From: Henricia sp. BOLD:AAB3569
Lineage: Eukaryota > Echinodermata > Asteroidea > Spinulosida > Echinasteridae
Length of the DNA: 64,000 nucleotides
Reading direction: 5' to 3'
Assembly (NCBI GenBank): GCA_037783545.1
Contig: JBBELK010000560.1
Span: 62,001 to 126,000, forward strand
Of the stretch, positions 2,641 through 51,777 are shown piece after piece. The translations under genes were made by a program, and so were the position numbers. A model generated the notes under the pieces. That model was given only the letters and a program-made list of their open reading frames with translations. It was not told the DNA's origin and did not search any database. Numbering within the stretch: the stretch's first letter is position 1; each line of letters opens with the position of its first letter.

Positions 2641-2987
2641 ATATTTTGGTAGACTTTTAGTATGGTGTTCAGGAGACTTTACTGAAATGCATACCAGTTA
2701 AAAAAATTATGTTGCAATTAGTGGTGGGTTGAGCCAAACAATTGCTTAGATTGACTGGACTATATATGGATGATTCCAAAAGCTCCCCGCCGCTGGTTGG
2801 TTACAATTTATAAATAATTCACCACCTCCGTTGCTGTTGAATTATTCAGCACGAAGGTCACAAATACGCTTTGGTAAAGGCGTTCATGGCGAACAGTCTG
2901 CAGTATGAATGTTAGTCTTTCCTCAAGCGCTAGCAAAAGCGTGCACAAAAAAAAACCTCGCCACGGACGCCTTGACTAAAGGCTAGT
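2641..2987. other. no gene recognised
   Basis: Non-coding; no repeat structure seen apart from short AT-rich runs. Confidence 0.5.
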
Positions 2988-3440
2988 ATCTAGGCAGCCT
3001 GTCTCGGGTCAGAGGTCATAATGTATCTTTTTAGGGAGGATGTCTGGGCCACACGGCCAATGGTATAAACGTACGTGCGCGAGTAGTGATTAAGTCAGAC
3101 AGACGAGACATAATAAGAAGGGATTGATTTACAACCAAGAAAATTGGACTTTTGAAGATGTAAAACTGCTAGTTTCCGTGGCATCATCGCCAGGAAAGTT
3201 GAATGAACACTTGATAGCACAAGGACATTTACTTTTGGTGACTTAGCTGTTGTATCTTGGGTGTAATTATGTACGGCTAGCCTTAGTCGGCGGACCAGAG
3301 TAAATATGTCTTCTCCCTGAAAACTGTGAATGTGACATGCTGGAAATCGTTGCTGTGTTGGAAATAAAATGGACATGGTGGACCGCAACTCAAGTTGACT
3401 GGAGCGTCAGTTTATTCTAGATGCAATTGAACCCCAACTC
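2988..3440. repeat. dispersed repeat, copy A
   Basis: About 450 bp that recurs in direct orientation at 5377-5820 with scattered substitutions. A reverse-strand open frame of 97 codons here has a 76-codon relative in the other copy, but the frame differences show no clear selection for protein. The homology resumes at 3762-3807, so copy B lacks the stretch 3441-3761. Confidence 0.8.
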
Positions 3441-4625: not shown

Positions 4626-5376
4626 TAGAGCCAACGTGGTAGGGAATTTGACCATATAGTTCTACGGAACGAAGTGTTCCCTCACATGTGGACTTTATGA
4701 GTACATATATACCACCGATGACGTCATCACGTGCACGGTGGTTACGTAATGTGGAGAAATTTTTCTTTCTTCATTCTTCCGAAAGAAAATTCTTTTCTTT
4801 TCTATATCTACCTCATGTAAGAATCAAAAGAAAAAGACAATGACAACTTTTTGGAGAACATTTGGTAGGAAAAGCCGCCTACCTCGCTATATTTCATATA
4901 TACATGCATCAACAAAATTCAATCAACGAAATCAATGATACAGAACAGTTACTCAAACATATGCTGTGGCCCTAATTGGGCCGATTCCACAATCCGCTTG
5001 GATTCAATGATAGTTTGAAAATTTCTAAACATTGGTAAACTATATTCCCAACGATGTTGAGGCATATAGGCTGGTGCTTTCGTCCGTTTTAACAGTACGA
5101 GTTTCTGGCCTGCGAGTACCGTATAGCGAGGTGAGGTTGCTCAACCGTGAATAGAACGGTTGGCGTACAATGAACGACTACTGAAAAGGGTTACGTAACA
5201 AAGCGCGCTTGGAATTAGCGCGCTACACCTGTCGTTCGATAACGAAAAGAAAAGACACATTTGTTGGGTCCCTTGGTAATTAAGCTAACTCAGTCGTTTG
5301 ATGGCGCTATGCCAAGCATCCACTAATCTGACGATTTGCGCCCATATATAGTGCTCGACTTCTAATGATAGAACTT
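4626..5376. other. no gene recognised
   Basis: Non-coding sequence without a supportable feature. Confidence 0.5.
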
Positions 5377-5867
5377 GTATCTAGGCGGCCTGTCTCGGGT
5401 CAAAGGTCATAATGGATATTTTTAGGGAGGATGTCTGAGCCACACGGCCAATGATATACACGTACTTGCGCGTGTAGTGAATAAGTCAGACGGACGAGAC
5501 ATAATAAGCAGGGCTTGATTTACAACCGAGAAAATTTGACTAGAAAACTGCTAGTTTCCGTGGCATCGTCGCCAGGAACGTTGAATGAACACTTGATAGC
5601 ACAAGGACATTTACTTTTGGTGACTTAGCTTTTGTATCTTGGGTGTAATTATGTACGGCTAGCCTTATTCGGCGGACCATAGTAAATATGTCTTCTTCCC
5701 GAAAACTGTGAATGTGACATGCTGGAAATTGTTGCTGTTTTGGAAATAAAATTGACATGGTGGACCGCAACTCAAGTTGACTGGAGCGTCAGTTTATTCT
5801 AGATGCAATTGAACCCCAACCCGATCACCTTGCATTTGTAAAAAAAACACAAACGCGAAGCTCTAGT
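5377..5867. repeat. dispersed repeat, copy B
   Basis: Direct copy of 2988-3440 that continues straight into the equivalent of 3762-3807, so about 320 bp present in copy A are missing here. The last ~45 bp can form a hairpin around the run of A residues (tttgt...acaaa). Confidence 0.8.
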
Positions 5868-6775
5868 TGTTTTTGTTTTGAACGTGCGTTCCTCCCGAAA
5901 ACCGATCGCCGCGACACAGTCAATAACAACGTCTTGGGAATGTAGTAGTGACAGCGCCGTGCGCGCGCACCTGTTTTGTATAATGTTATGCAGAGCGCAC
6001 TGTCGCCTGCCTACTATGCATGTGTGCACGATGTCTAGTCCCCCGTGTCCTCACATCGTGGCATGACTACACAAGGATGCCGCGGGCTGTGGAAATCGTA
6101 ATGCCCTCGGCAAACCTTACGATTCGACACGGTAATTTAGAGATTTTGTTGAAAATACAATTGTACTGGGCATTGCAAAAATTAAAAATCTATCAAATAG
6201 GTACTGTTCCACAGAAAATCGAGGCCACAGTTGAACATATTTGCCATTTTAAAACCTGCCGTTTCGGGAAAATAATCTTTCAAGCTGTACATTTTTTTGA
6301 ATGAAAAAAAAAACCGGGTGAAATTAAAACACTGCCTGTTGCCGTAGCTTAATCGTAGTGTGTTGAACAGTTTATTGGCCTAAATCTCGATGGCTCAGAA
6401 ATCTTCGGAAATAATCTGGAATATTTGACAGATACACATTTCATTTACCATCCCATAACAGAGAAAATCGCTCACACCATGGAGCTATAAATAGCTCAAT
6501 GCTCAATCGAAATATGGAAGAAAGGAACTCGCAAAACGCAAATACTGCACACCGTACCGGGCGACTCGTGCGTGCACAAAAACATTGGACAAGAGATAAA
6601 CATTTTTTAAATACGTGACAAAAATTCCCCTTCCCTCCCAGTGGGTATTCAAAATGTCAACTTAAAACCAGCAATAGCACTGTCATAAGATACATCCTTA
6701 TAGGCATATGCTAGGGACTCGGACATCCGTGACATCATCAGTCGTGCAGTCGTGACACTATTATTTGTCAAATCC
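5868..6775. other. no gene recognised
   Basis: Open frames up to 94 codons are present (6020-6304) but carry no recognisable domain. Nothing else is supported. Confidence 0.5.
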
Positions 6776-6779
6776 GTAA

Positions 6780-7213
6780 GGGTGCACCCAAGTAAATAGT
6801 GCTCCCATAGGAACCAATGCTAAATGCCCCATTTTCAAAAATCATTTAAAAATACTCACAACTCTCTCAGCTTCTCAGGACAACAACTGAGGGTAATCCG
6901 TCACTTTTATTCCCTAATTTGCACTTAAAACAAAACTATCCCTGCAACAGTGAAAATTGCTAAACAGACCAGCGTCCATTTTGGAACAAAGGCACATACG
7001 CTACTGGGCAAAATAGAGCCACTTTTAGGAGCTACAGTGTCTAAAATGTTTGTAGTTGGAAGAAAAAATACCCCACATCGCGGCGATAGTCATATTCTAC
7101 ACAAGACCACACTCGTTCAGCTCGTAATTCTCTCTAATATAAAATAATTTGAGGGCATACAAAATATTAATGAGCTCGGCGCACGGATCTCTGCTATTTA
7201 CTTGGGTGCACCC
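6780..7213. mobile_element. array module 1 (internally deleted)
   Basis: Inverted ends 6780-6799 and 7194-7213. About 58 bp present in the other modules (the stretch after acaacaact) are missing, and the left end has the canonical cacccaag form. Confidence 0.8.
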
Positions 7214-8183
7214 TTTAATAACCTGGGTTGTTGAAACTTGGACCACAAGTACTCTTGTGGGATAGAATTAACACTACTGATCACATTTCTGCAAACAAAT
7301 TTGAAAAAAAGTTATTGGAGGACAAATGACAAGCCCACCCAGATAGGGCCCCGCCCATGATGTTTCGTACACTGCTGAATGGACTTGAATGCACATGCAC
7401 TCTCTAAGATTTTACCCTCAAGTCCATCTTCAAATTCCACCTGAATTTTGGAATGTCATAAGTCTCGGGATATTTTTCGTGTTCTGCTGTCCCATATTGT
7501 AGTGATGCCGGTGCAGGGCGGGGGGAGGGGAGTTGCCACTAGAAAGAGAGAGTATTGCTAAAACTCTTCCAAATCAAGTCAAGTACATGTATACTGATGC
7601 ATCTATCTACCCTCCGCCCCCCCTCCCCCACCCCCCGACCCCGCCCCCCCCCCCCCCCCCCCCCACCCCCCGCCCCCCCCTCCCCCACCCCCAACCCCAC
7701 CCCCCAGCTACCGGCCTATTTTCATGCCCCAGGGTGGGGATTTTGATGCATATATAAATCAAATTGTATGACATCTAGGAGCAAACATGCATGTTTTGCC
7801 ACATGGGTTGGAATAGTTTGTCACCTAATTTTTCCCCAGGGGTGGGGATTTTGTTACTCGACAATCACCCCCCCCCGTCCCCCCACACCTCTTATGTGGG
7901 GCAACCTTGGGGAGGGGGGTGGGAGGGAACAAGCTTGATAGCCGGTGCATTACTACATGTAATACCTGTTTTGCTCTGGGCTAACTTCTCTCCACTGTGA
8001 TTGGCAGAATTGATCTTGCACCAGACCTGAAGAAATTAAATAAATAATATTTTTACCAAATTAAAATGACTTCAAAATGTCATTATTCCTGTAATTTCAA
8101 CTTTTACCTTCGATGTAAACAAACTCACGTGTTTAAATACATGTGGAGTAATGAACAACAAACAACATGGCCGCCACTCTACA
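7214..8183. repeat. array spacer 1 with C-rich and G-rich tracts
   Basis: Non-coding, 970 bp. It has a ~95-bp C-rich tract (about 7613-7708), then a C-run (about 7868-7886) facing a G-rich run (about 7909-7926), which could pair as a hairpin. Equivalent spacers are 8664-9647, 10128-11084 and 11565-12526. Proline- and glycine-rich open frames here follow from the homopolymers. Confidence 0.8.
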
Positions 8184-8663
8184 GGGTGCACACAAGTAAA
8201 TAGTGCTCAAATAGGAACCAATGCTAAATGCCCCATTTTCAAAAATCATTTAAAAATACTCACAACTCTCTCAGCTTCTCAGGACAACAACTAGAATACT
8301 TATTGAAGTCTCATCTTTTCAATTATGTTCAATTTTATGAGGGTAATCGGTCACTTTTATTCCCTAATTTGCACTTGAAACAAAACTATCCCTGCAACAG
8401 TGAAAATTGCTAAACAGACCAGCGTCCATTTTGGAACAAAGGCACATACGCTACTGGGCAAAATAGGGCCACTTTTAGGAGCTACAGTGTCTAAAATTTT
8501 TGTAGTTGGAAGAAAAAATACCCCACATCGCGGCGATAGTCATATTCTACACAAGACCACACTCGTTCAGCTCGCAATTCTCTCTAATATAAAAGAATTT
8601 GAGGGCATACAAAATATTAATGAGCTCAGCACACGGATCTCTGCTATTTACTTGGGTGCACCC
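8184..8663. mobile_element. array module 2
   Basis: 480 bp with inverted ends. The left end carries the variant gggtgcacacaag, which slightly breaks the palindrome. A 94-codon open frame runs through the right end and recurs in modules 3 and 4. Confidence 0.8.
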
Positions 8664-9647
8664 TTTAATAACCTGGGTTGTTGAAACTTGGCCCACAAGT
8701 ACTCTTGTGGGATATAATTAACACTACTGATCACATTTCTGCAAACAAATTTGAAAAAAAGTTATTGGAGGACAAATGACAAGCCCACCCAGATAGGGCC
8801 CCGCCCATGATGTTTCGTACACTGCTGAATGGACTTGAATGCACATGCACTCTCTAAGATTTTACCCTCAAGTCCATCTTCAAATTCCACCTGAATTTTG
8901 GAATGTCATAAGTCTCGGGATATTTTTCGTGTTCTGCTGTCCCATATTGTAGTGATGCCGGTGCAGGGCGGGGGGAGGGGAGTTGCCACTAGAAAGAGGA
9001 GAGTATTGCTAAAACTCTTCCAAATCAAGTCAAGTACATGTATACTGATGCATCTATCTACTCTCCGCCCCCCCCCCCCCCTCCCCCCCCCCCCCTCCCC
9101 CACCCCCCACCCCCCGCTCCCCTCTCCCACCCCCCAACCCCACCCCCAGCTACCGGCCTATTTTCATGCCCCAGGGTGGGGATTTTGATGCATATATAAA
9201 TCAAATTGTATGACATCTAGGAGCAAACATGCATGTTTTGCCACATGGGTTGGAATAGTTTGTCACCTAATTTTTCCCCAGGGGTGGGGATTTTGTTACT
9301 CGACAATCACCCCCCCCCCCCCCCCGTCCCCCCACACCTCTTATGTGGGGCAACCTTGGGGAGGGGGGGGGGGGGGGGGGGGGTGGGAGGGAACAAGCTT
9401 GATAGCCGGTGCATTACTACATGTAATACCTGTTTTGCTCTGGGCTAACTTCTCTCCACTGTGATTGGCAGAATTGATCTTGCACCAGACCTGAAGAAAT
9501 TAAATAAATAATATTTTTACCAAATTAAAATGACTTCAAAATGTCATTATTCCTGTAATTTCAACTTTTACCTTCGATGTAAACAAACTCACGTGTTTAA
9601 ATACATGTGGAGTAATGAACAACAAACAACATGGCCGCCACTCTACA
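8664..9647. repeat. array spacer 2
   Basis: 984 bp, the longest spacer. The extra length is mainly in the C-rich tract (9066-9147) and the G-run near 9362-9383. Confidence 0.8.
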
Positions 9648-10127
9648 GGGTGCACACAAGTAAATAGTGCTCAAATAGGAACCAATGCTAAATGCCCCAT
9701 TTTCAAAAATCATTTAAAAATACTCACAACTCTCTCAGCTTCTCAGGACAACAACTAGAATACTTATTGAAGTCTCATCTTTTCAATTATGTTCAATTTT
9801 ATGAGGGTAATCGGTCACTTTTATTCCCTAATTTGCACTTGAAACAAAACTATCCCTGCAACAGTGAAAATTGCTAAACAGACCAGCGTCCATTTTGGAA
9901 CAAAGGCACATACGCTACTGGGCAAAATAGGGCCACTTTTAGGAGCTACAGTGTCTAAAATTTTTGTAGTTGGAAGAAAAAATACCCCACATCGCGGCGA
10001 TAGTCATATTCTACACAAGACCACACTCGTTCAGCTCGCAATTCTCTCTAATATAAAAGAATTTGAGGGCATACAAAATATTAATGAGCTCAGCACACGG
10101 ATCTCTGCTATTTACTTGGGTGCACCC
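9648..10127. mobile_element. array module 3
   Basis: 480 bp with inverted ends; it shares the gggtgcacacaag left-end variant with module 2, so these two are sister copies. Confidence 0.8.
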
Positions 10128-11084
10128 TTTAATAACCTGGGTTGTTGAAACTTGGCCCACAAGTACTCTTGTGGGATATAATTAACACTACTGATCACAT
10201 TTCTGCAAACAAATTTGAAAAAAAGTTATTGGAGGACAAATGACAAGCCCACCCAGATAGGGCCCCGCCCATGATGTTTCGTACACTGCTGAATGGACTT
10301 GAATGCACATGCACTCTCTAAGATTTTACCCTCAAGTCCATCTTCAAATTCCACCTGAATTTTGGAATGTCATAAATCTCGGGATATTTTTCGTGTTCTG
10401 CTGTCCCATATTGTAGTGATGCCGGTGCAGGGCGGGGGGAGGGGAGTTGCCACTAGAAAGAGGAGAGTATTGCTAAAACTCTTCCAAATCAAGTCAAGTA
10501 CATGTATACTGATGCATCTATCTACCCTCCGCCCCCCCCCCCCCCCCTCCCCCCCCCTCCCCCACCCCCCGCTCCCCTCTCCCACCCCCCAACCCCACCC
10601 CCAGCTACCGGCCTATTTTCATGCCCCAGGGTGGGGATTTTGATGCATATATAAATCAAATTGTATGACATCTAGGAGCAAACATGCATGTTTTGCCACA
10701 TGGGTTGGAATAGTTTGTCACCTAATTTTTCCCCAGGGGTGGGGATTTTGTTACTCGACAATCACCCCCCCCCCCCGTCCCCCCACACCTCTTATGTGGG
10801 GCAACCTTGGGGAGGGGGGGTGGGAGGGAACAAGCTTGATAGCCGGTGCATTACTACATGTAATACCTGTTTTGCTCTGGGCTAACTTCTCTCCACTGTG
10901 ATTGGCAGAATTGATCTTGCACCAGACCTGAAGAAATTAAATAAATAATATTTTTACCAAATTAAAATGACTTCAAAATGTCATTATTCCTGTAATTTCA
11001 ACTTTTACCTTCGATGTAAACAAACTCACGTGTTTAAATACATGTGGAGTAATGAACAACAAACAACATGGCCGCCACTCTACA
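10128..11084. repeat. array spacer 3
   Basis: 957 bp, otherwise matching spacers 1, 2 and 4; C-rich tract at about 10530-10603. Confidence 0.8.
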
Positions 11085-11564
11085 GGGTGCACCCAAGTAA
11101 ATAGTGCTCCCATAGGAACCAATGCTAAATGCCCCATTTTCAAAAATCATTTAAAAATACTCACAACTCTCTCAGCTTCTCAGGACAACAACTAGAATAC
11201 TTATTGAAGTCTCATCTTTTCAATTATGTTCAATTTTATGAGGGTAATCGGTCACTTTTATTCCCTAATTTGCACTTGAAACAAAACTATCCCTGCAACA
11301 GTGAAAATTGCTAAACAGACCAGCGTCCATTTTGGAACAAAGGCACATACGCTACTGGGCAAAATAGGGCCACTTTTAGGAGCTACAGTGTCTAAAATGT
11401 TTGTAGTTGGAAGAAAAAATACCCCACATCGCGGCGATAGTCATATTCTACACAAGACCACACTCGTTCAGCTCGCAATTCTCTCTAATATAAAAGAATT
11501 TGAGGGCATACAAAATATTAATGAGCTCAGCACACGGATCTCTGCTATTTACTTGGGTGCACCC
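11085..11564. mobile_element. array module 4
   Basis: 480 bp with canonical gggtgcacccaag left end and inverted right end. Confidence 0.8.
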
Positions 11565-12526
11565 TTTAATAACCTGGGTTGTTGAAACTTGGCCCACAAG
11601 TACTCTTGTGGGATATAATTAACACTACTGATCACATTTCTGCAAACAAATTTGAAAAAAAGTTATTGGAGGACAAATGACAAGCCCACCCAGATAGGGC
11701 CCCGCCCATGATGTTTCGTACACTGCTGAATGGACTTGAATGCACATGCACTCTCTAAGATTTTACCCTCAAGTCCATCTTCAAATTCCACCTGAATTTT
11801 GGAATGTCATAAGTCTCGGGATATTTTTCGTGTTCTGCTGTCCCATATTGTAGTGATGCCGGTGCAGGGCGGGGGGAGGGGAGTTGCCACTAGAAAGAGG
11901 AGAGTATTGCTAAAACTCTTCCAAATCAAGTCAAGTACATGTATACTGATGCATCTATCTACCCTCCCCCCCTCCCCCCTCCCCCACCCCCCGCCCCCCC
12001 CTCCCCCACCCCCCGCTCCCCTCTCCCACCCCCCAACCCCACCCCCAGCTACCGGCCTATTTTCATGCCCCAGGGTGGGGATTTTGATGCATATATAAAT
12101 CAAATTGTATGACATCTAGGAGCAAACATGCATGTTTTGCCACATGGGTTGGAATAGTTTGTCACCTAATTTTTCCCCAGGGGTGGGGATTTTGTTACTC
12201 GACAATCACCCCACCCCCGTCCCCCCACACCTCTTATGTGGGGCAACCTTGGGGAGGGGGGGTGGGAGGGAACAAGCTTGATAGCCGGTGCATTACTACA
12301 TGTAATACCTGTTTTGCTCTGGGCTAACTTCTCTCCACTGTGATTGGCAGAATTGATCTTGCACCAGACCTGAAGAAATTAAATAAATAATATGTTTACC
12401 AAATTAAAATGACTTCAAAATGTCATTATTCCTGTAATTTCAACTTTTACCTTCGATGTAAACAAACTCACGTGTTTAAATACATGTGGAGTAATGAACA
12501 ACAAACAACATGGCCGCCACTCTACA
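11565..12526. repeat. array spacer 4
   Basis: 962 bp. The C-rich tract (about 11964-12048) is interrupted by more T and A residues than in the other spacers. Confidence 0.8.
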
Positions 12527-13006
12527 GGGTGCACCCAAGTAAATAGTGCTCCCATAGGAACCAATGCTAAATGCCCCATTTTCAAAAATCATTTAAAAAT
12601 ACTCACAACTCTCTCAGCTTCTCAGGACAACAACTAGAATACTTATTGAAGTCTCATCTTTTCAATTATGTTCAATTTTATGAGGGTAATCGGTCACTTT
12701 TATTCCCTAATTTGCACTTGAAACAAAACTATCCCTGCAACAGTGAAAATTGCTAAACAGACCAGCGTCCATTTTGGAACAAAGGCACATACGCTACTGG
12801 GCAAAATAGGGCCACTTTTAGGAGCTACAGTGTCTAAAATGTTTGTAGTTGGAAGAAAAAATACCCCACATCGCGGCGATAGTCATATTCTACACAAGAC
12901 CACACTCGTTCAGCTCGCAATTCTCTCTAATAGAAAATAATTTGAGGGCATACAAAATATTCATGAGCTCAGCGCACGGATCTCTGCTATTTACTTGGGT
13001 GCACCC
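12527..13006. mobile_element. array module 5 (terminal)
   Basis: 480 bp. Its right end is followed by the GTAA target-site copy and unique sequence. Small differences near 12930-12975 match module 1 rather than modules 2-4, as expected if the two outer modules are the original ends. Confidence 0.8.
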
Positions 13007-13010
13007 GTAA

Positions 13011-13849
13011 CCGAAGTTTGCAAGCTTGATGGACTGCTACGTGGAATTGCACTGTAAATCATGTCGTCTTTAGTTTCTGTCATTTAATCTGCCAGGCTGA
13101 TTTATTTTTGGTACAGGCCTATTGGGGCTAGTTTTCTTTGTATTTGTGCCGAATATCACGCAAATCCACCTGTGCAGTGGTAATATTTTCCGCCCCAAAA
13201 TATCATCAAAATCGGCAGCTGGCAGGCGCCATCAACTACCTATATAGTCTTGATTCAAGATACCAATACGGGGATGACTGTACCAGTTGGCATAACAAAG
13301 CCTGCACCTACATGTATTAAGCGAAACTTGAATTTAAAACTAAAACCAAGAGTTAATAAATAACGTGCTTCGTGCCAAGAAGGGCGCTTTGCATGCATCA
13401 CATCACAATTTTTAAAGTTGCTGTCTGTTAATTTTTATTGACAATTCGGCACGTAAATTTGACACATTTTAACAAGCATAAAACAGGAACTGCTTGATGC
13501 ATTTTTGCAACAAAAGTATTTTTAATATCTGTTGCAACTTGTCTGTTGTGTGAAAATGGTTCTAACTAGAAACTAAAAATAAAATTTGAATTTTTATTCC
13601 AAGTCGCTACCCAGGCCATTGACTTAGTGGACGGAGTCTCAACTGCCAAAGTATGGTATTTTTTCCGTTGGGTTCTCACTGTGTATCGGGCCGAGTAGTA
13701 TAGAAAAGGGGGTTCCTGGGCCAACTAAATTGATCGTCAGTGTCGTTATCACTGGGCCAGAAACCCCGCCCTTTAATTAAAAATTTGATCTGAGTTGGGA
13801 TATTCTAAATTGATTTAAACAACTTTTATTTAAAATTATAATTATTATA
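13011..13849. other. no gene recognised
   Basis: AT-rich unique sequence between the array and the Polinton fragment. No supportable feature. Confidence 0.5.
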
Positions 13850-13862
13850 TATAAAATGGAAA

Positions 13863-14210
13863 GTGGACATAAGCCGACTGGTTATTCTAGATGGAACAAA
13901 AAAAAGTATCGCTAAATTTATTAGCGATGAAAACTTGCCGGCTGTAATAGACGTCGGTGAGAAAATTGGAACGAGAAGACAACTACTAAAAACGATTAAA
14001 CAATATGCGGATGAATTTAAAAATATTCGAGGTAAAACTGAACATAATCTGTGTTCGCTCATCGACAAGTATAAGGTCGAGGCCACGGATAAAAATAACA
14101 AGTATACGAAGGGGGATTATTTGGAGTCGATAAGAAATTACTGGCAACCTATATACAGCGGGGCCAAGCCAGTCGACTTTGATGGTGCAGTGCCTCGGGG
14201 GAATTGAGAT
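13863..14210 (+). pseudogene. unrecognised Polinton-side open frame
   Basis: A 114-codon Lys/Asp-rich open frame that precedes the PolB remnant in the same orientation and shares its base composition. I do not recognise a domain. It begins near the element's AT-rich left margin and ends with a stop 190 bp before the first PolB homology. It may be the decayed N-terminal part of PolB or a separate small gene. Confidence 0.35.
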
Positions 14211-14400
14211 TACGTCAATTTCTTCAAATACAACAAAAATAAAATTATAAAAAAAATGCTCTCAGTGATACTGAACAAACCAAATTATAATTTCCAGTTG
14301 GGCTTATGGGTAACTCTTAAACAAATTAAACGCGCAGGGGAAAATCGCATTCAGTACAAGCAATGAACTTGTTTTAAACAATAGCGACATTAGCAAGGCG

Positions 14401-17400
14401 TTGAATAGTAGTATAGGAAATTTAAAGGTGAAACTAGAAGAATTTCAGACGGAAAAGAGTGGGTGGTCTGTGTTTAAGCTAAACACGCTATACATAAACT
14501 TTACGGAGTACAGGCCGATCGGGGGAAGTTCTTACATAGAACTACCGAAATACATAAGAAATAAAAAGGCAGTCGTCAACGTGAAAAACGAAGACGACGA
14601 GTGTATACGCTGGTCTTTGAGAGCGGCTCTAGGAAAATTTTATGATAAAGTAAAAACAAGCGTAATGAGTGAACAAACGTATAAAATAAGGTACCACAGG
14701 ATAGAAATTTACAAAAAAGACGACGGTTTAAATTTTGGAGGCGTAACTTTTCCGACGCCCATAAGTCAAATACCCAAGATTAACAAAACAACTTAAACAT
14801 TAACGTGTTTGGATACGACGAAAAGAACGGCATATACCCGCTATACGAGTCGGGCGAGGTAATTAACTTCATGCTATACTCTAACGGCGGCAAAAACCAC
14901 TACTGCTGGATCAAAATTCTAAACAAATTATTTTTTAGTGAGACCAAGCATAAAGAAAAGAAATACTTTTGCGTTAGATGCCTGCAGCATTTCAGCAGTC
15001 AAATGATATTTGACAAACACAAAATTGACCGTTCGGGGGTTAAACAAGGCCAGCAGAATAGTCAGGCCGTCTACGGAACTAGACAGATATAACCGTACAC
15101 GAGACGTTATACAAATTTAAAAACACGCAGCATAAGATGCCAACGCCTTTTGTTATTTATGCAGATTTTGAATCGCTGATAGTACCCCACAAAGAAAAAG
15201 CGGACAACGCTACCATCAAAACTCAAAAACACGTGGCTTGCGGGTGGTCGTACGCGGTAGTCAGATGCGACGGACATCTAGTGAGTAAACAATATTATAG
15301 GGACGAAAACGCGGTTGAAAAATTGCTCAAATTTACAAATGGAGGAAGCCGCTATAAACAAACTTTTTGAAAAGGAAAATGCGCAAAACATGATTTATAC
15401 AAAATCAGACGAGGCTAAATTTAACGATTCAAAACATTGTTGGATTTGTGAGTATTCAATCAGAAACCAAGACCCGTCAAAATGTACTTGCAAGTTACCT
15501 AAACCAAAGAAAAGACAGAGAAATCGTAAAGAAGTCTGCTTGTGCGAAAATTGCCAAAAAGAGACTCAGTCTTCCTCGAAGGTGAGAGACCACTGCCATA
15601 TAACGGTCAAATTTAGGGGCTCTGCTCACAACGCTTGTAATCTGAAACTTTCCATCAAACCAAAAATAACTAAAATCCCAGTCTTCTTTCATAACTTAGA
15701 AAATTACGACGCTCATTTAATCATGCAGGGGATTTATGAATTTAGTGGCGACATTTTTTGCACACCAAAGACTTCAGAAAATACATTTCATTTTCTCTAG
15801 GGCAACTGAGATTTGTCGACTCGTTTCACTTTTTAGCGAGCTCTCTAGATAAGCTCAGTAAAATATGCCCTAGCGAGCAATTTAACCTGCTTAAAACTCT
15901 GGCTAAAGACGAAGAAAATTCAAGTTAATCTTGAAAAAAATTGTGTTTATCCTTACGAGTAAATGGATTATTTCGACAAATTTAAAGAGACTAAATTACC
16001 ACCAAAATCAAAATGTTATAGCAAGTTATAACAACAGTGGAGTATCTGACGAAGACTACATGCACGCTCAAAGAGCTTGGCGGGAATTTAAAATCTCTAA
16101 TATGGGAGAATATCACGAATTATATGTACAGACCGACACGTTATTGTTGGCGGACATTTTCCATAATTTTAGATCAACCTGTCTAGAGCACTACGGGCTA
16201 GACCCCGCCAATTACTTTACATCTCCAGGTCTCAGCTGGGACGCGCTGCTAAAACATTCAAAGACGCAACTAGAATTACTGACGGATGACGACATGTACC
16301 TATTTGTTGAACGCGGAAAAAGGGGCGAAATTTCTAGCGTTGGAGCTAAGAGATACGTCAGAGCAAACAACAAGTACTTGCAGGATTACGACGAAACAAA
16401 GCCGAGCGCGTTTATACAATATTTGTATGCCAATAACTTGTACGGGTAGGCAATGTCTCAACCGCTGCCGGTCGGCGACTTTAAATGGCTTACCGACAGA
16501 AAAATCAAATTATTTACCGAAGATGTACTAACACTTTTGGAAGCGAAATCTGAAAGAGGATACATTTTGGAAGTAGACTTGGAATATCCTAAGGAATTAT
16601 ACGACGAGCATAACGATTACTTGAACGTTCCTCAAGAGTGGTTTTCAGATTACCAACGACGACTAATCGAAATCAACGAGCTGTCGCCGCCCGACGTCGA
16701 TAAACTAACGTGCACTCTGAAAAATAGAACAAAATAAGTCGTTCATTATCAAACTCTTAAAACTGTATCTCAATTTCGGATTAAAGTTGACCAAGAATCA
16801 CATAATTTTATCTTTCAAGCAGGACGCATGGATGAAGTCGTACATCGACAAAAACACCCAGCTACGCAATGAATCAAAATCAGATTTTGAAAAAGACTTG
16901 TTTAAGCTGATGAATAATTCAGTCTTTGGCAAGACAATGGAAAACGTACGCAACCGTATGAAATCAGAGCTAGTCAGATTAGAAGACGAAAAGAAACTTT
17001 TGAAAATGTGCTCATTACCAAATTGTGAATCGACTACAGTCTTTGAAGACTGCAAACTGGCTATAGTAAACATGTACAAGACAAAGACGATTCTCGACAA
17101 GCCAATATATTGCGGAATGACGATATTAGGCTAGTCAAAAACGCTCATGTACGATTTGTATTACAACCATTTGAAGCGCAAGTACACAAATAATGTAAAC
17201 CTAGTGTACACTGCCACTGACAGCCTTCTCTTAGAAATTAAAACGGACGACGTATGCGCCGACATGAGCAAGTATAAGCACCTATACGACTTTTCAAATT
17301 ATCCAGAGGAGCACCAAATGTATGACAAAACTAATAAAAAGATAATAGGCAAATTTAAAGACGAGAACGCGGGCCAACATATAGAGGCGGTGTGCTTCAG

Positions 17401-17422
17401 ACCAAAAAGGCAAAGGTATTAA
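14401..17422 (+). pseudogene. Polinton/Maverick-type family B DNA polymerase, decayed
   Basis: Fragments in all three frames, in family order. The N-terminal region contains YIELPKYIRNKKAVVNVKN (14401-14796). A C2H2-like finger CVRCLQHF follows near 14975. Next come exonuclease motif YADFESL (15160-15180), an HNH/EndoVII-like Cys-His segment with VRDHCHI (15430-15640) and FFHNLENYDAHLI near 15690. The palm region starts at 15931, motif B KLMNNSVFGKTMENVR lies near 16910, and motif C is near 17207. A TAG at 16447-16449 ends the motif A frame. In motif A the expected Asp is Tyr (codon 16426-16428), and in motif C the expected DTD reads ATD (Ala codon 17213-17215). The enzyme of this family replicates the element by protein priming; this copy cannot be active. 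Confidence 0.88.
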
Positions 17423-17589
17423 AAGGGTAGTGGTGAAAGACAACCTGACGTTAAATTTGTACAATAAATCTCTATTTAATTCTACTCTGGTTTACAGAAA
17501 ACAGTGAAAAACATCAAATATATTCGATCATGCAGAATAAATTGGCTATTTCACCGCTGGATACCAAGAGATACATTTTGGACGACGGC

Positions 17590-18135
17590 ATAAACACTCA
17601 CGCGTACGGACATTATTTGACGGACGGAGGCAGCTCCGTGTCTGTGGGTGCGACTTGAAGCTATTGTCTAACAAAGGATCACTTTGGGGCGGGGCCGTTT
17701 AAATAATACAAGATTGACTGTCCGCTCACGCGTACAGACATTAGGGACCTATAGAAATGATACGCGTACGGGAAACGTATGCGGTCCGAGAAAATCGTGT
17801 GGTTGTATCACAATTTTGCGTGTTTATTCAAGAAATGAGCGCATGAGTACATGACCATATTGATGTGAAATTCTCATTACTTGTGTTTTTTCAGATTAAT
17901 GCCTACGCAAAATCGTGATACAACCACCCGTTTTTTCCGAGCCGCATATGTTTCCCGTACGCGTATAATTTCTAATGGTCCCTACTATTTGACGGACGGA
18001 GGCGGCTCCGCGTCTGTGGGTGTGCACGCGCGTACGGACATTATTTGACGGACGGTGGCAGCTCCGTGTCTGTGGGTGTGCACGCGCGTGCGGACATTAT
18101 TTGACGGACGGAGGCAGCTCCGTATCTGCGGGCAC
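17590..18135. repeat. GC-rich ~55-60-bp repeat inside the Polinton fragment
   Basis: Four related copies of a block containing gacattatttgacggacgg and ggcagctccgtgtctgtggg, at about 17605-17655, 17985-18030, 18035-18085 and 18090-18135. Two are followed by a shared tail (acctgaagct... ggggc). They lie between the polymerase and integrase remnants. The first copy is separated from the rest by a MITE. Confidence 0.8.
17744..17982. mobile_element. 239-bp MITE in the Polinton repeat
   Basis: Inverted ends of about 80 bp: 17744-17822 and 17905-17982 pair with few mismatches. The element begins GGGACC and ends GGTCCC, flanked by TA on both sides (17742-17743, 17983-17984), the pattern of Tc1/mariner-type MITEs. 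The surrounding GC-rich repeat unit is interrupted at gacat...ctatttgacgg. Non-coding. Confidence 0.8.
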
Positions 18136-18182
18136 GACCTGAAGCTCGTGTCGCACAAAAGACCTCTTTGGCGCGGGGTCGT

Positions 18183-18686
18183 TTAAATAATATAAAATTG
18201 GCTGTCCGCGAGCGTGGGTGTACTCTTTGGCGGTATAAACGTATGAAGGCTCCATATAGGATCGGTCGCCCGCCTCTTTTCACCACTCTCTGATTCGCCC
18301 GGCTGATACATATACCTGACTAAATCTCTACCTATTTTTAACGGCATCTCTTTAACGCCGGGAGCAGAGGGTGTTTGTTCGACTCGCTTTAATTTAATGG
18401 CGTCTGCGGGTTTCTTTTTAATCAAGCGCGTTTCTTCGTCGTTCATAGCTTTGATGTCGTCCGGTAGTCTCTTTACCCACTCTTTATTTCTCGACTTTGG
18501 GTCGAGCATTTCTTCAGAGTATTGGTGACCGAATAATACTTCAGCCAATGACCTATTAAATCGCTCTACTATACCCTGGGCTCGGTGTAATCCGGGTATA
18601 CTGCGTTGTACTTTCGCATCATTTTTACTCATGAGCGCGCTAAAACTACCCATAAATTCGTTCATGTCGTTAATTCGTTCAAACAC
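18183..18686 (-). pseudogene. Polinton retroviral-like integrase, C-terminal half
   Basis: A 167-codon open frame with the typical end of Polinton integrases: GIVERFNRSLAEVLFGHQYS follows the expected catalytic-glutamate position of an rve core, and the C-terminal part has VRYMYQPGE and RRATDPIWSLH, a chromo/SH3-like tail. The N-terminal zinc domain and the first catalytic aspartates are missing from the reading frame. It is transcribed opposite to PolB, as in many Polintons. Integrase inserts the linear element into host DNA; this truncated copy cannot. Confidence 0.82.
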
Positions 18687-18721
18687 GTTAATCCAAAGTC
18701 GTTCATGGTAATTTATTTAAT

Positions 18722-21345: not shown

Positions 21346-22057
21346 GCTGTAAAGGAAATGGATACTGATTGTTACAGGCTCTCCACTACATTTTTGTGGC
21401 CGTACATTTTACCATGTAACACCGAAATCATTTTTGTGTGGAGGTCAATATTTTCTGCCGCACCTGGCTTTACATGTGGACTACCCACTGTGTTTTAGTA
21501 TATGGCTCAGTGCGTGCAGTGGTATTGCAGTTTCATGTACATGGAGTTTTACACATGTTTGGAGCTCACGTTTTTTGGGACTAATTACTGCATACTTTCA
21601 GCGTTTCTTTGATCAATACTTCGGGGAAAGACGATGTTTTAGGAAGCCTACCTGACGTCTCTCTGCATGTTTGTCGATACATTTAGCCTGTGCTCATCAA
21701 AGTCGTGAGTTTCTTTGGTTGCTCCATTATTTATAAGTGCAAACATTTATGAATATTTGAACTGCGGGCCATCCTGAGATTTCAACTGCATTCAAGTTCA
21801 TACACCTTGGACGAACACTTGATTCCCATGTTCGTGGACTCTCCAAGTTATCGAACTCAAATGTATGAACTCTGAACTGTGCATACACATGATTGACTGA
21901 TTAGTTTGTGTGATTGTTGTGTAATTATTGATTGCTAAATTTGTGTAAACTAATTTACTTGTTGCAAGGCCTTGCTATAATTACTGCACATAACAGTTAC
22001 GTGTTGATCATAACTGCATTGCTATTTACCTGTTTTTGTTGTAGCTTGATTTACAAC
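21346..22057. other. region upstream of BEL element 2; LTR not identified
   Basis: An LTR or leader should lie here, but no match to sequence downstream of 27485 is visible. No gene recognised. An open frame beginning at 21932 runs into gag, but its first 42 residues are hydrophobic and uncharacteristic. Confidence 0.4.
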
Positions 22058-22915
22058 ATGTCATTTTTAAATGCCAGTAAATCCAGCAAAGCTGGTACCA
22101 TTTATAGTACAGTCAGCAGTGCCAGACTAAAGGCAGCCATTGCGTTAGCGAGTCTAAGGGCGGAAGCTTCAGGTGTAGCAGTTACAAGAGCCATTGAAGA
22201 AGATGAATTCAGACTTCAACAACGTAAGCGAGACTGCAAACTTCAGCTGGAAATTGCCAAGGCTGAGGCCGAGCAAAGGGCTCTGGAAGATTTTGAGGAA
22301 GAATTTCCACATCAGCACCAGCAAGGGTTAAGCTTAGATGGGTCAATAGCTGCAGAGAAGGTAAACCAGTGGTTAGCTGGTACTCCGCAGCCATCTGCTC
22401 CAATACAACCCTCGTTGCCCACTCCAGTGCCCATTCCAGTGCCAGGCCCGTCGCCTGTCCCAGTGCAATCTTCATTGCTTATTCCAGTGCAACACCCACC
22501 GCCCGTCACCATGCAGCCTTTGTCGCCCTTACCAGTGCATCCGTCACTGCCCATAGCAACTATGCCTTTGCAACGTGAGATGATTGACACGCTTCTCCTG
22601 CCCAAGTGTGAACTTGCCAAGTTCTGTGGTGATCCGCTCGACTATTGGATCTTTACATCTAGTTTTGATGCAGCCGTTGGGAACAGTAACGTTGGTGCCA
22701 GTGCCAAGTTAAACCGCCTTTTCCAGTACTGTGAAGGAGAGGCACTGGCAGTCATCCGATGTTGTGCTGTTATGCAACCTGACGAGGGCTACATAAAGGC
22801 GAGAGAATTGCTACGGGAGCGTTTCGGCAACGACTACATGATTTCAGAAACCTGGGTCAGCAAACTGAGGGCCCACGTATCCAGCCAGGGGAACGCCGAG
22901 GTATCTAGAAGTTAG
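22058..22915 (+). pseudogene. BEL/Pao element 2: Gag N-terminal part
   Basis: Start chosen at ATG 22058 because the residues before it are unlike Gag. The first ~110 residues form an Ala/Glu/Arg-rich helix, probably coiled-coil, then a Pro/Val repeat (about 130-190), then a DUF1759-like Gag domain with LPKCELAKFCGDPLDYWIF and RERFGNDYMI. The frame ends at 22913-22915, just before an indel; homology resumes in another frame at about 22924. Gag would form the particle core. Confidence 0.82.
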
Positions 22916-22923
22916 CTGACGAT

Positions 22924-24432
22924 GTGCAGAGGAGCCTCAGCCTCATCGTGAAGAGACTGCCACATTACCTTCAAGCTAAATGGCGTTCCAAGGCAGTGGG
23001 CATTCTAGATGAGACTGGCCGCTACCCGAACATTACTCAGCTTGTCAAGTTTCTCAACAAAGCAGCCAGAGAAGCAAATGATCCGATTTACGGTTTCGAG
23101 GACCGACACCACACAGAGAAATCATCCTCAAAGAAGGGAGTTAACTACAACATCCAAGCCACCAGGGAGTCTGACCAGAGATATCGGGTTGGGACTGACT
23201 CATCCAAGCACCAAGGTGGCAAGACTGAATTGGTGAGGATGAAAGTTTGTCCGCTGTGCTCAGGGGGACATGCGCTCTTGGCCTGTGATGGCTTCAGCAA
23301 AATGTCTCCTGCCGACCGACTCAAAGTGACAAGTAAAAACAAGTTTTGCTTCAATTGTCTCTCCAGTAAGCACTTCTCGAGTCAGGGCCAAGCAGCTCCC
23401 TGTGGTGTCCAAGGGTGCAAAGGAAAACATGCAAAGATGTTGTATGGTGCATTCCAGAGAGCATTTCAGAGAGCAAGTTCTGAAGATGCTAGTGCTTCTA
23501 CTAAGGAGTCTTCTGACGATCAGAAAGTTGGAGCAACTAGCCTTGCTTGTGGGTCCATGCAAGAACACTCCAAGGTAGCCCTACCAGTTGTCGCCGTGAT
23601 GGTGAAAGGTACAGGTAGTGGGGAGTGGCTCAAGACTCATGCTCTTCTGGATCCCGGGAGCAATCGGTCATTTTGTTCAATGGAATTAGTAAAGCTACTG
23701 AGCGTAGAGGGAATCACACAGTCCTTAGCTCTGGACACATTGAACATGAATTCACAGGTTCAAACACTGGTGGTCCCCTTGGACATTTCTGGCATCGTCG
23801 GCAAGGCCATTGCCAGAAAGTCTTTCTGCATTCCCAAGATACACGCTCTGAGAGAGTTTCCCACTCTGCGGGATTCATGTGCCACTCACGAGGAACTGAA
23901 GAAGTTTGAACACTTGAGAGACGTTCCTGTTCCATACATGGCTAAGGAAGGTGTGATGATGTTGATTGGACAAGACGCCCCACAGGCCCTAGTTCCCTTG
24001 GAGGTGAGGCATGGTGCAGAAGGCGAACCCTACGCAGTCAGAACCTGCCTAGGTTGGACGGTGAATGGACCATTAGCCAGTGGGATTCCAACAGCAGCGG
24101 TGTCCAACTTTGTTCACGGAGGCCTTGATTTTCAGGTGGAGCGATTTTGGAGGCTGGACACTGCTGATCTATCAGATGATAGAACCATCTCTCTGGATGA
24201 CAAGAACGCAATCAAGACATGGAATGATTCCATCACCCTTGTCGATGGCCACTACCAGTTGGATATATCGTTCAAGTCAAACCTATCTAACCTGCCTGAC
24301 AACAAGACTGTTGCAGAAAGACGCCTGCAGTGCATTGCCAAGCGATTTGCCAAGGATCCAGAGTTGCACGCAAGATACTGTGCCGAGATCCAAAACCTGA
24401 CAATTGGGGGGGTTTGCCGAAAGGGTACCTGA
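22924..24432 (+). pseudogene. BEL/Pao element 2: Gag zinc knuckles, protease, start of RT region
   Basis: Continues Gag (RSLSLIVKRLPHYLQAKW), then Cys/His-rich knuckles with CPLCSGGHALLACDGF (near 23250) and CFNCLSSKHF (near 23350). The aspartic protease of the DUF1758 type follows, with ALLDPGSNRSFCS (near 23640), the usual BEL variant of the D-S/T-G motif. After it comes VRTCLGWTVNGPL (near 24040), characteristic of the protease-RT linker. The frame ends at 24432 after a shift at the G-run near 24407-24413. Confidence 0.85.
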
Positions 24433-26140
24433 TCATGAGCTGGAAGCATCTCCGGGGCAAACGTGGTACCTGCCTCATCATTGTGTCTTGAATCCCAACA
24501 AGCCTGAAAAGCTTAGAGTCGTCCTCGATTGTGCTGCCAGGTACTGTGATACTTCACTCAACGACCGAGTATTACAGGGGCCGGATATGATGAATAAGTT
24601 AGTAGGTGTACTTCTCCGGTTTCGAGAGCACAAAGTGGGTTTGATGGGAGACATCGAGAAGATGTTCTACCAGGTTGGCGTCTCTAAGGAACACAGAGAT
24701 GTGTTACGTTTCCTGTGGTGGCCTGAAGGAGTCGTTACTAGACCTCCCGAAATATTCCGTATGACGGTCCACCCTTTTGGAGGGGTATGGAGTCCGAGTT
24801 GTGCTGCATTTGCTCTTCGCCGTACAGCGGATGACAATGAGGCAGCTTTCAGCAACGATGCAGTCCTGGCGGTGAAGGAGAACTTTTACGTTGATGATCT
24901 CCTCAAATCCTTCACGTCAGAGGATGATGCGGAAGCCATGGTAAAACAGCTGACACACCTTCTAGCAAAAGGCGGCTTTCGCCTGACTAAGTGGGTCTGC
25001 AGTAGCAGAAAGGTCATGGACTCCATACCGATGGATGAGAGAGCTAAGACTGTCTCAAACCTGGACCTCGACCATGAACGCCTTCCTTTGGAGAGAGCCC
25101 TTGGAGTGCGCTGGGACACTGAATGTGATCAGATCGGAGTCAAGATAAAGATGAGGCGTGGATGCCAGACGAAGAGGGTTCTCTTAAGTATCCTGAGTTC
25201 AGTATATGACCCTCTTGGTTTTCTGTGCCCGTTTGTTCTGACAGCAAAGATCCTATTCCAGGATGAGTGCAGAATAGTTGGCAAGGGCTGGGATAAACCA
25301 TTGGAAGTCAACACGCAAAATCGGTGGGACAAGTGGTTAGATGATCTTCCAAGGTTGGAGCGGTTTGCTGTAAATAGGTGTTTGGTTCCAGGTGAATTTG
25401 GAGTTGTTCGTGAATGCCGTCTGCATCACTTCTCCGACGCTTCACAGGACGCCTATGGCAGTGTTTCCTATGCCCGATTTGTCAACTCTGTTGGTGATGT
25501 CCATTGTAGCTTCCTGATTGGCAAATCACGACTTGCACCACTCAAGACAATGACTATCCCTAGACTAGAGTTATCTGCTGCAGTCATTGGAGTGATGATG
25601 GACCAAATGCTCAGGAGGGAACTTAGGCTGCAGCTGCAAGAGTCAATGTTCTGGACGGACAGCATGTTGGTCCTCCAGTATATCAACAACAAATCCAAAC
25701 GCTTCCAAACCTTTGTTGCTAATAGAGTGGCCACAATCCATGATGGTTCTACCGCCAGTCAATGGAGGCACGTCGACACACAGAGGAATCCTGCTGATGA
25801 CGCATCAAGAGGTCTTGATGCCCAAAGTCTGCTTGACAAGAAACGATGGAAGGAAGGGCCAGACTTCTTGTGGCAGTCTGAGGATAGTTGGCCGGTGACT
25901 CCGAAAGTTCCTAGTCTACAGGAAAAGGACAAGGAAGTTAGAAAAGTAGCACTGTCCCGAGCCGTAGATGTTGCTGAGCAGGATAATCCAGTTGAAAGGT
26001 TGATCAGCAGGTATTCCTCCTTGTGTCGTCTCAGAAAGGCGGTTGCCTGGATCCTCCGCTTCGTCAGATGGCTGCAACGTCCTGAGCCTAGGCATTGGGG
26101 TGAAAAAAGACCCCCGAAGTTGACAGTGGGCGAACTTTAA
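24404..26140 (+). pseudogene. BEL/Pao element 2: reverse transcriptase and RNase H
   Basis: A 578-codon frame beginning after the G-run. RT motifs in order: YLPHHCVLNPNKPEKLRVV, LMGDIEKMFYQV (motif A, Asp near 24650) and FYVDDLLKSF (catalytic YVDD, near 24890). The connection has SILSSVYDPLGFLCPFVL. RNase H has LHHFSDASQDAYGSVSY and WTDSMLVLQYINN. All catalytic residues that I can place are present. Ends in an in-frame TAA (26138-26140), after which the same frame continues. RT/RNase H copy the element RNA into DNA. Confidence 0.9.
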
Positions 26141-26626
26141 GAGGCTGAGCTGGCCATAGTCCGAAGCGTCCAAAGAAGGCACTACAAGGACGAATTCCGT
26201 GAGTTGCTGGCGGGCAAGACATCTGTGCAGAAGCAGAGTCCAGTGTATAGTCTCGCACCCTGTCTTGACGACCATGGGGTATTGAGGCTTGGTGGTAGAC
26301 TTCGACTCTCCCCGGTTATGCCGGCTTGCAAGCACCCAGCAATACTGCCTCGAGATAATCATCTAGCCACTCTACTAGTTCGTCATGCTCATGAATCTTT
26401 GGCAGGCCATTCAGGCAAGGAGCATGTGCTGTCCTTGATAAGGCAACAGTATTGGATTCCCAAAGCGCGACCCTTGATCAATCGCATTCTTAAGAAATGT
26501 GTGCTCTGCAGAAGATTGCGAGGATTACCTGGCGTTCAACGCATGGCCGATCTGCCTGCCTACAGAGTTACTCCAGGTCAACCACCGTTTACCCATGTGG
26601 GTGTAGATTGCTTCGGGCCATTTTAA
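26141..26626 (+). pseudogene. BEL/Pao element 2: integrase zinc domain and core start
   Basis: Same frame as RT after a nonsense codon. HHCC zinc domain: HAHESLAGHSGKEHVL, then KKCVLCRRLRG (26390-26520). The first catalytic aspartate lies in HVGVDCFGPF. An in-frame TAA at 26624-26626 interrupts directly after it. Confidence 0.87.
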
Positions 26627-27485
26627 GTCAAACGAGGCCGGAGCAGAGAAAAAAGGGTATGGCTGCATATTTACCTGTATGTCCATCAGAGCCATCCACC
26701 TGGAGAAGTTGCACACTCTCGATACCAACTCATTCCTCAATGCCTTCCTTAGGTTTGCAGCAAGGAGGGGAACCCCCGAGAAGGTGTACTCCGACAATGG
26801 GACAAACTTTGTTGGAGGAGAAAAGGAGCTGAAGTCGGCTATCGAGCGCCTAGGTCACAGCGAACATACAGAAGCATTCTTACTCAACAGAAAGGTTGAA
26901 TGGCAGTTCAATCCACCAGCAGCCTCCCATATGGGAGGTGTCTGGGAACGTCAGATTCGTACCTGCAGGAAAGTTCTGAACTCACTTCTGTCTGGTCAAG
27001 TGCTTGATGACGAGAAACTCGACACCTTGTTCTGTGAAGTGGAGTCTATAGTAAATGATAGACCCATCACAGCTGTCTCCAATGATCCAAAGGACCTTGA
27101 ACCACTCACACCCAATCATCTGCTGAAGCTTGGACATGGTCATCCGGTGCCACTCCGTGACTTGAAGACAACTGACCAGTATGGGAGACGATGGAAACAT
27201 GTACAGTTCCTAGTTGAGCAGTTCTGGAAGCGTTGGACTGCGGAGTATCTCCCCACACTTCAACGTCGACAACGTTGGGTTGAGGAACGACCCAATTTCA
27301 AGGCTGGTGATCTAGTGTTGGTCAGGGATGACAACATACCCAGGAGTAAGTGGCCTCTGGCTAGGATTTTGAAGACATTCCCTGGAGGAGATGGTCTAGT
27401 AAGGAGCGTGGAAGTGCGGACAGCTTCCGGAAGTCTCGTCAGGCCCATTACTAAGCTGTGCCTGTTGGAAGGTGCTGCGGATTAG
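26627..27485 (+). pseudogene. BEL/Pao element 2: integrase core and C-terminus
   Basis: Continues in a shifted frame from about 26660. IRAIHLEKLHTLDTNSFLNA is followed by the second catalytic Asp in YSDNGTNFVG (near 26793) and the Glu in HMGGVWERQIR (near 26945), completing D,D,E. The C-terminal DUF5641-like domain has FKAGDLVLVRDDNIPRSKW. Ends at TAG 27483-27485. The element has one in-frame set of all domains but at least three frameshifts and two stops. Confidence 0.9.
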
Positions 27486-44294: not shown

Positions 44295-44485
44295 AATGAA
44301 TTATTTATCATGCATGAAAGAACTTGCCAATCCGATATGATGCTTTCAATCCAATTGTTTACCAGAATATTTTTCGCGAAATTCAAATTTGATGATCGTG
44401 ACAATAAAAGCATCTGCTCAGTCGTGCGTGAAATAATACAAACATGTATGGTGTGAACCAACGCGTGATGCCCCTACAAATATAT

Positions 44486-45005
44486 TGTGGTGAGTTCCGT
44501 CTTCCGCAACGATTACAACTGACTTTGGATGCGACACAAAACATAAGTTCGATCATTTAATTAACACTTGACCCGGACGGAGGTCCGTCCCGTCCGAACT
44601 CAAAACAACAACTACAAGTTTAAACTTAACATCTGTATTTATACCAGAACATGTTTCTAAGAAAGAATAAATAACAAAACATTCTAATCATAACATCTGT
44701 AATAAACTCATTACTTTATTTATAGAGTAGCGCGTAGCGTATACCTGGTAGCGTGGCAAAAACAGCTCACGCGCTGAGCCAACGGAGGGCGCTCGCGTAG
44801 TCAAACAGGTGCGTGATAATAAGCGAGTTCTTAATTCACGCGCAGCCAAGGTGCATCATCAGTGCAGTGTATGTAGTGCAGGCGCTCGGCGCCGATCGCG
44901 TGAACGCGACACACAAACAGCCGCGCAACATGGTAATCTTTAACGATAATCAATTACTGATAATTACAAATAAATATCCAATGAACGTGGTGTAATTTCA
45001 CAACA
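44486..45005 (-). repeat. 3' LTR of Gypsy element
   Basis: 520 bp, TG...CA. Contains an internal GC-rich part (gctcacgcgctgagccaac) and an AT-rich part. Direct copy at 51798-52324. Confidence 0.92.
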
Positions 45006-45020
45006 CTCTCCCCCGCTTCG
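45006..45020 (-). promoter_or_regulatory. polypurine tract
   Basis: On the reverse strand, gaagcgggggagag stands directly before the 3' LTR; this primes plus-strand DNA synthesis. Confidence 0.7.
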
Positions 45021-50040: not shown

Positions 50041-50112
50041 TTTCTTGCCGTCCCCGCTATTACCAGTGCAATAGGACTGTCTTGCAATACAGGACGCAGC
50101 TCCTCGGGCAAA

Positions 50113-51498: not shown

Positions 51499-51777
51499 GG
51501 TCTCCAAAACAAAGGTATCCAAGTGTTTCCAACGAACAACACCGCGAAATCCACAGACAAATGTCGTAACGCGATTTTCGCACAAAAATTAAGAATCACA
51601 ACGCGATTTTCGCACAAGAAATGAAGAATCACAACGCGATTTTCGCACAAGAAATCCTCATCGTACATCCAAAAAGGTAAATCCAAGTCATCCAAGGTAT
51701 AAATCCAAATCGCACACATAAATCCATTTCGTCGCAGAAATTTCCGAATCGTCACAAATAATTCCGATTCGTCATCG

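Follow-up and report, generated by a model that had tools for sequence, protein, structure and literature searches.

The window, a 64,000-nucleotide stretch of the sea star Henricia sp. BOLD:AAB3569 (contig C560, positions 62001-126000), holds at 6780-13006 an array of five modules alternating with four spacers, with a module at each end. We call the modules long terminal direct repeats (LTDR) and the spacers internal regions (INT), since the family appears to fit the published layout (LTDR-INT)n-LTDR of KolobokP, or Kolobok with Paired ends (Kojima and Bao 2022, PMC9587614), an assignment that draws on layout and domain matches. Genome searches covered the 740.7-Mb assembly, where related modules are found as solo copies, in a monomer on contig C108, in longer arrays and in a coding relative on contig C871. 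The parts of the array are as follows:

6776-6779, no strand, left target-site duplication GTAA, its 4-bp length as in 35 of 46 solo copies
6780-7213, plus strand, LTDR 1, the outer left long terminal direct repeat, 434 bp, with a private 46-bp deletion
7214-8183, plus strand, INT 1, nonautonomous internal region, 970 bp; the same INT is in the C108 monomer, and the INT ends match the coding relative C871
8184-8663, plus strand, LTDR 2, 480 bp, identical to LTDR 3
8664-9647, plus strand, INT 2, 984 bp
9648-10127, plus strand, LTDR 3, 480 bp
10128-11084, plus strand, INT 3, 957 bp; bases 1-319 are 77% and bases 795-937 are 78% identical to the ends of the C871 INT
11085-11564, plus strand, LTDR 4, 480 bp, its first 406 bases equal to those of LTDR 5
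11565-12526, plus strand, INT 4, 962 bp
12527-13006, plus strand, LTDR 5, outer right, 480 bp, differing from LTDR 4 only in the last 74 bases
13007-13010, no strand, right target-site duplication GTAA, of the same 4-bp length as in those 35 solo copies

An earlier sequence-only reading of the window had described five modules and four spacers with GTAA only at the outer ends, and this description holds (modules of 434 or 480 bp, spacers of 957-984 bp, GTAA at 6776-6779 and 13007-13010). The module length of about 480 bp that it gave is right for modules 2-5 but not for module 1, which measures 434 bp because 46 bp are missing; this loss is found in the same form in none of 71 other full-length modules, several of which have other deletions nearby. 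Unit lengths in the window are 1450, 1464 and 1437. Every module is bounded at its start and finish by a 20-bp inverted repeat, and a search for the 20-mer GGGTGCACMCAAGTAAATAG that tolerated up to 3 mismatches found it 10 times in the window and in none of 100 shuffles. The inverted repeat is perfect over 20 bp in modules 1, 4 and 5 and has one mismatch in modules 2 and 3, which start with GGGTGCACAC, so the terminus earlier called self-palindromic is so in the former three and imperfect in the latter two. All inner boundaries read TACA/module/TTTA and the inner flanks do not pair. For two random 4-mers of the window, the chance of agreement is 0.0046. An Rfam scan of 5500-14500 gave no matches at gathering scores, and a search for the terminal-repeat pattern in collections of viral contigs and genome contigs found no stretch in either. 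Among the matches listed by a full-text literature search for GGGTGCACCC, none was a transposon paper by its title.

That the spacer belongs to the mobile unit is seen at other sites in the genome. C108 carries a complete module-spacer-module copy with CTAT on both outer sides, its two modules being identical to each other and the two ends of its spacer 80.5% and 89.7% identical to the window spacer. Module-spacer-module thus moves with one 4-bp duplication. The single-spacer composite had been put forward before as one possible mobile unit, and the single duplications at C108 (CTAT), C195 (AGCT) and C871 (TTAA) bear it out. A 4-bp outer duplication is present at all five multi-part sites where both outer ends are seen, namely the window (GTAA), the C108 monomer (CTAT), the C871 trimer (TTAA), a 14-mer on C195 (AGCT) and the site shared by C1007 and C898 (GTAG).

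The exact LTDR/INT junction occurs 87 times in the genome (control 0), with 75 of these on ten contigs that have at least two and 12 single. On C195 there are 14 junctions with AGCT at both outer sides, and its interior was read for 395 bases only; these first 395 bp of the INT agree with the window INT at 342 of 372 aligned bases (91.9%), and the modules are 93.5% identical. On C724 there are 20 exact junctions; the length of this array would accommodate about 23 units, and INT is still present ahead of the first junction. Array size in this genome goes up to 14 units inside a single duplication and, on C724, to about 23 or more. AGAA precedes the first module of the C867 array and follows the last module of the C156 array. 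Both arrays run to a contig start, so the two may be parts of a single array. At C729 and at C724 one outer end is seen, C616 has no module at either assumed right edge, and the copies on C84 and C92 are truncated.

The array on C2 (loci L009-L010, C2:334000-352000) is of a different make, in that related modules are paired with an unrelated INT of about 1.87 kb, which matched neither the coding INT nor the window spacer when compared with them, and one inter-module interval is enlarged to 5409 bp. Stretches at about 731-1432 of the window are 68-93% alike to the INT of this multimer. We also considered a swap of LTDRs, with one INT type ending in CTCTAYA combined with three module lineages. 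We do not claim it, as the C195 INT is about as distant from the window INT as the modules are and only the INT 3' end is close (74-116 bp at 97.4-99.0% at C195, C724 and C1007).

The 4-bp rule was assessed on solo modules. The exact terminal 20-mer is found at 733 places in the genome (0 for the reversed control), and our sample comprised 82 stretches, 80 of them around places among the first 100 of the 733 and two from C871. These gave 96 module hits, 71 of them full-length. For the target survey we dropped 25 partial modules, 15 that lie in arrays or beside INT and 10 that share a flank with an earlier row, which left 46. The sample leans to well-kept copies because it was chosen by one exact terminal repeat. 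Among the 46 independent solo modules 35 have an exact 4-bp flank match, against 1.8 expected from mismatched pairs, and matches of other lengths are rare (one each of 2, 3 and 5 bp, none of 6 bp). Different target lengths in many solo modules, which had been named beforehand as a finding that would refute the sequence-only reading, were thus not found. L011 and L052, both among the 46, have most of the right flank in common and may stem from a single insertion that a repeat has carried along; the count would then be 34 of 45. The 35 duplications are biased towards N-T-A-N, with T at position 2 in 26 and A at position 3 in 31, and the GTAA of the window agrees with this bias. Only two of the 35 are TTAA, so the constant TTAA target of piggyBac and other Kolobok elements is not seen here.

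Some solo modules have been copied along with their surroundings. Seven of them on C47 (L012-L017 and L061), 97.9-98.1% identical to module 4 and with the same flanks, are spread over about 1 Mb of the one contig, and they are probably one insertion copied inside a larger repeat. A GTAT-flanked module at L011, L019 and L027 (partly also L020 and L052) has outer flanks common to several loci and is present twice in L011, 5.8 kb apart; it seems to sit inside another repeat.

The sequence-only reading had found no transposase and left the superfamily unclear. The first part stands for the window, whose INTs show neither transposase nor nuclease, and the second has moved on with the KolobokP layout and with the search for an autonomous relative, which turned up a coding one elsewhere in the genome. 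PF05551, the I-PpoI-type nuclease domain, has at least 3 matches in the genome, all three at C871. This locus consists of three units of about 4.3 kb that share four 480-bp modules, with INTs of 3856, 3842 and 3762 bp and TTAA flanking the whole. On the element strand, three of four pieces, which lie in separate frames and were searched singly and unjoined, match the Mutator-like transposase PF20700 (E 3.5e-17, 1.2e-17 and 3.6e-13) and the fourth matches nothing; a DPSH string of the C/DxxH type was read by eye in this transposase. A protein search with one of these pieces returned 9 proteins at E <=1e-5, of which 5 carry PF20700 and the sole named one is from Holothuria leucospilota. A frame on the opposite strand matches PF05551 (E 2.4e-11) and, by sequence, I-PpoI in the PDB (E 0.0086), and it retains residues at the S97/H98/H110/E114/N119 spacing named in the accessible text of PMC9587614. 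The C871 LTDRs are 86% identical to window module 4. As the window INT matches the C871 INT only at its ends (bases 1-319 and 795-937), we see in the window copy a relative that lacks the coding core.

How the array reached four units can be read in part from its modules. We polarised their states against the 71 other full-length modules, near-duplicates included (seven from C47, six from C2 and four from C871). Derived states are shared by modules 2-3 (26A, 27A, 315T), 2-4 (448A), 2-5 (166G) and 1-4 (436A), and private within the array are 284A, 392T and the 46-bp loss in module 1 and 407G in module 5. Among the 71, 26A, 392T and 407G occur in none, 27A, 166G, 284A, 315T and 448A in one each and 436A in two. 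Such nested sharing suggests several rounds of growth and not one burst. In trees the four C871 modules group together (100/100), as do the six C2 modules (100/99) and window modules 2-5 (93/92; 94/92 in a second tree). An example of a site caught with two unit numbers comes from C898 (two units) and C1007 (three units), which have the same site and the same GTAG, with a left flank identical at 1884 of 1885 positions and a right flank 98.6% identical over 1968. As far as such comparisons allow, the nested changes and the two-/three-unit site favour stepwise growth in place.

Taken together, we think it very likely that the block is one nonautonomous insertion of a KolobokP-type DNA transposon, (LTDR-INT)4-LTDR, multiplied in place to four units. 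A transposase supplied in trans would have inserted the composite by way of its outermost terminal repeats and so left the single GTAA duplication. Further internal units would then have been added in steps by unequal exchange, a recombination among the LTDRs within the one insertion that leaves the outer duplication as it was. We infer that C871 or a similar relative supplied the transposase, that growth took place at the window site, and that the exchange was unequal crossing-over and not circle integration.

Several observations do not sit well with this account. Among the 46 solo modules, 11 have flanks without an exact 4-bp match. The C871 site is less clean than the others, in that the two flanks of its first module agree as well (CTTTAA before, TTTAAT after), because the INT by chance begins with TTTAA. 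In the tree modules 2-5 group without module 1, which has no settled place among the solo copies. Support for modules 2-5 is only 93/92, and a branch that sets all five window modules apart appears in 16% of 200 bootstrap trees, the bootstrap not yet having settled. At position 412 modules 1 and 5 both have T and modules 2-4 have G, a pattern not given by a simple exchange between the ends of one monomer. In the C898/C1007 example, C898 is indel-rich in its last LTDR and about 220 bp are missing from its first, and assembly error may contribute to it. At C195:1041408-1060154 the junction spacing is exactly 1442 bp, 13 times over, and this equality hints either at an amplification of very recent date or at an effect of the assembly.

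The states at position 412 bear on the possibility that a solo LTDR or monomer at the site took up, by recombination and possibly repeatedly, a circle of one LTDR plus one INT excised from another copy, with the resident GTAA kept (model 5b of Kojima and Bao, PMC9587614). As far as that source is accessible the duplication stays unchanged under this model too, and the 412G of modules 2-4 and the 445A of modules 2-5 are also present in the solo copy L062 and the 412T of modules 1 and 5 in L012, so two module lineages may be mixed in the window array. The mosaic rests on few sites, however, and position 412 is variable in the genome sample (G in 50 and T in 19 of 71). We regard circle integration as conceivable but rather doubtful. 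A different way to reach the same structure would be for a tetramer to have grown elsewhere and then transposed whole by its outermost ends. Of the two routes offered by the sequence-only reading, movement of the whole array and in-place expansion of a single-spacer composite by unequal exchange, the nested changes favour the latter, and the former seems improbable to us. It would give the outer ends and one GTAA as observed, and in maize a 28-kb macrotransposon was excised and a 10.3-kb one reinserted, as given in the accessible part of PMC9910405. Such a move is nevertheless unneeded when the monomer and arrays of different unit number each lie in their own duplication and one site has two unit numbers, and of the 12 modules at the edges of six other arrays not one groups with those of the window.

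The remaining alternatives fare worse. Transposition during replication, followed by re-replication of the element and its flanks, yields in the maize Ac model tandem copies bounded by transposable elements and composite insertions with target duplications (PMC4270019, in its accessible part). The maize composites of the same source hold flanking host DNA, though, and their breakpoints show repair through end joining or homologous recombination, while here an identical LTDR/INT border recurs within the window and at other sites, and this origin is very unlikely. Much the same low standing goes to an artefact of assembly, that is, a false tandem expansion. The 13 exactly equal spacings of C195 and the seemingly poor polishing of C898 show where such an error might enter, yet three of the five window modules and all spacers carry their own differences or distinct homopolymer lengths and the unit lengths differ. 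Independent miniature inverted-repeat transposable elements (MITEs) around host DNA, later duplicated as a segment with GTAA agreeing by chance, would be in keeping with how common solo modules are (733 exact terminal matches). Against this, the spacer ends match the INT ends of C871, a chance agreement is rare, the inner flanks are unpaired and the same spacer lies between modules with one outer duplication at C108 and C195. Once that spacer had been found inside a duplication at both sites we rejected chance MITEs, and we give the idea hardly any credence.

A more far-reaching idea, on which we would not put much weight and which is probably wrong, is that insertions of a composite transposon are being converted, one after another, into satellite DNA in this genome. 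Each array would start from one insertion with its single duplication and grow to 14, 23 or more units, and the homing-type nuclease of the coding relative could drive this growth in trans by cutting LTDRs. If true, it would be a case of a selfish nuclease making a satellite.

Other repeats and mobile elements are present in the window. A direct repeat at 2983-3438 and 5374-5820, 92% alike over 456 bp, lies to the left of the array at a distance of 1 to 4 kb. Pieces at 14314-18716 resemble what we take to be the protein-primed polymerase and integrase of a Polinton, and Pfam gave there only a weak Endonuclease_7 match, below the cut-off. A BEL/Pao-type retrotransposon occupies 21932-27485, with Peptidase_A17 and RVT_1 at 24401-26140; the best named relative of this polymerase is from Patiria miniata (84% over 56% of the query), and the top-ranked protein is 76% identical over 97%. 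Direct repeats at 44485-45005 and 51797-52324 (97.7% alike over 528 aligned bases) flank a gag match on the minus strand (50695-51588) and a long frame on the same strand (46201-50112), polymerase-like on visual inspection, and 44485-52324 is probably one long terminal repeat (LTR) retrotransposon. A DDE_Tnp_4 transposase frame lies at 56414-56869 (E 1.6e-25), presumably Harbinger-like.

Of the known systems, KolobokP is the closest, and our comparison is with the accessible part of PMC9587614. Shared with it are the LTDR-INT-LTDR layout, the solo LTDRs and the multimers with shared LTDRs (in the window, C108 and C871). The LTDR of 480 bp (434 in module 1) compares with published lengths of about 450 or 660, a 480-bp LTDR being included in the 450 type, and it likewise has its own inverted repeats, with termini GG...CC that fit RR...YY. 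The monomer of 480 + ~970 + 480, or about 1,930 bp, is within the range of nonautonomous oyster copies (1,738-3,261 bp), and the 4-bp duplications are within the published 3-5 bp and lie, as there, outside solo copies and multimers. The transposase on the direct strand and the His-Me finger nuclease on the complement are also shared, here in C871 only, and the published hosts include a sea star, Patiria miniata. Differences are the inverted repeat, 20 bp here against 11-18 bp, and the clear N-T-A-N bias, which contrasts with the lack of a strong target preference that the paper observed in three molluscs. Set beside KolobokP, the window copy is without the coding core, and arrays in the present genome attain 14 units and, on C724, about 23 or more. 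A further KolobokP trait is the excision of single LTDRs, with INT-INT junctions left behind. For the origin of multimers the paper weighs unequal crossover, circle integration and nuclease-induced exchange; the word "satellite" is absent from its main text.

Tandem growth of a transposable element is known from MITEs that seed satellites (PMC12628747 and PMC9659126, each in its accessible part), which are likewise short noncoding inverted-repeat elements multiplied in tandem, while here the tandem unit is a module plus INT of one composite bounded by a single duplication. Two 2414-bp oyster satellites, CgiSat13 and CgiSat16, are annotated DNA/Kolobok in the accessible part of PMC8268682 and resemble our case as long-unit tandem arrays with a Kolobok label. 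We infer a link between them and KolobokP multimers from that label, which is all that the source gives. Elements of this kind are already known, and long satellite-like arrays are among the forms that they take in the present genome.

The Ac elements of maize, which we take to be hAT transposons, provide a more distant parallel. In their macrotransposons and composites the outer ends of two elements mobilise the interior with one duplication, as here, but the duplications are of 8 bp and the cargo is any host DNA in between (PMC9910405 and PMC4270019, in their accessible parts). What the present genome adds to these systems is an echinoderm assembly in which a KolobokP-type element occurs side by side as solo copies, as a monomer, as a coding trimer and in nonautonomous arrays. 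With a site that has two versus three units and at least one array of 14 units in one duplication, the origin of multimers becomes testable.

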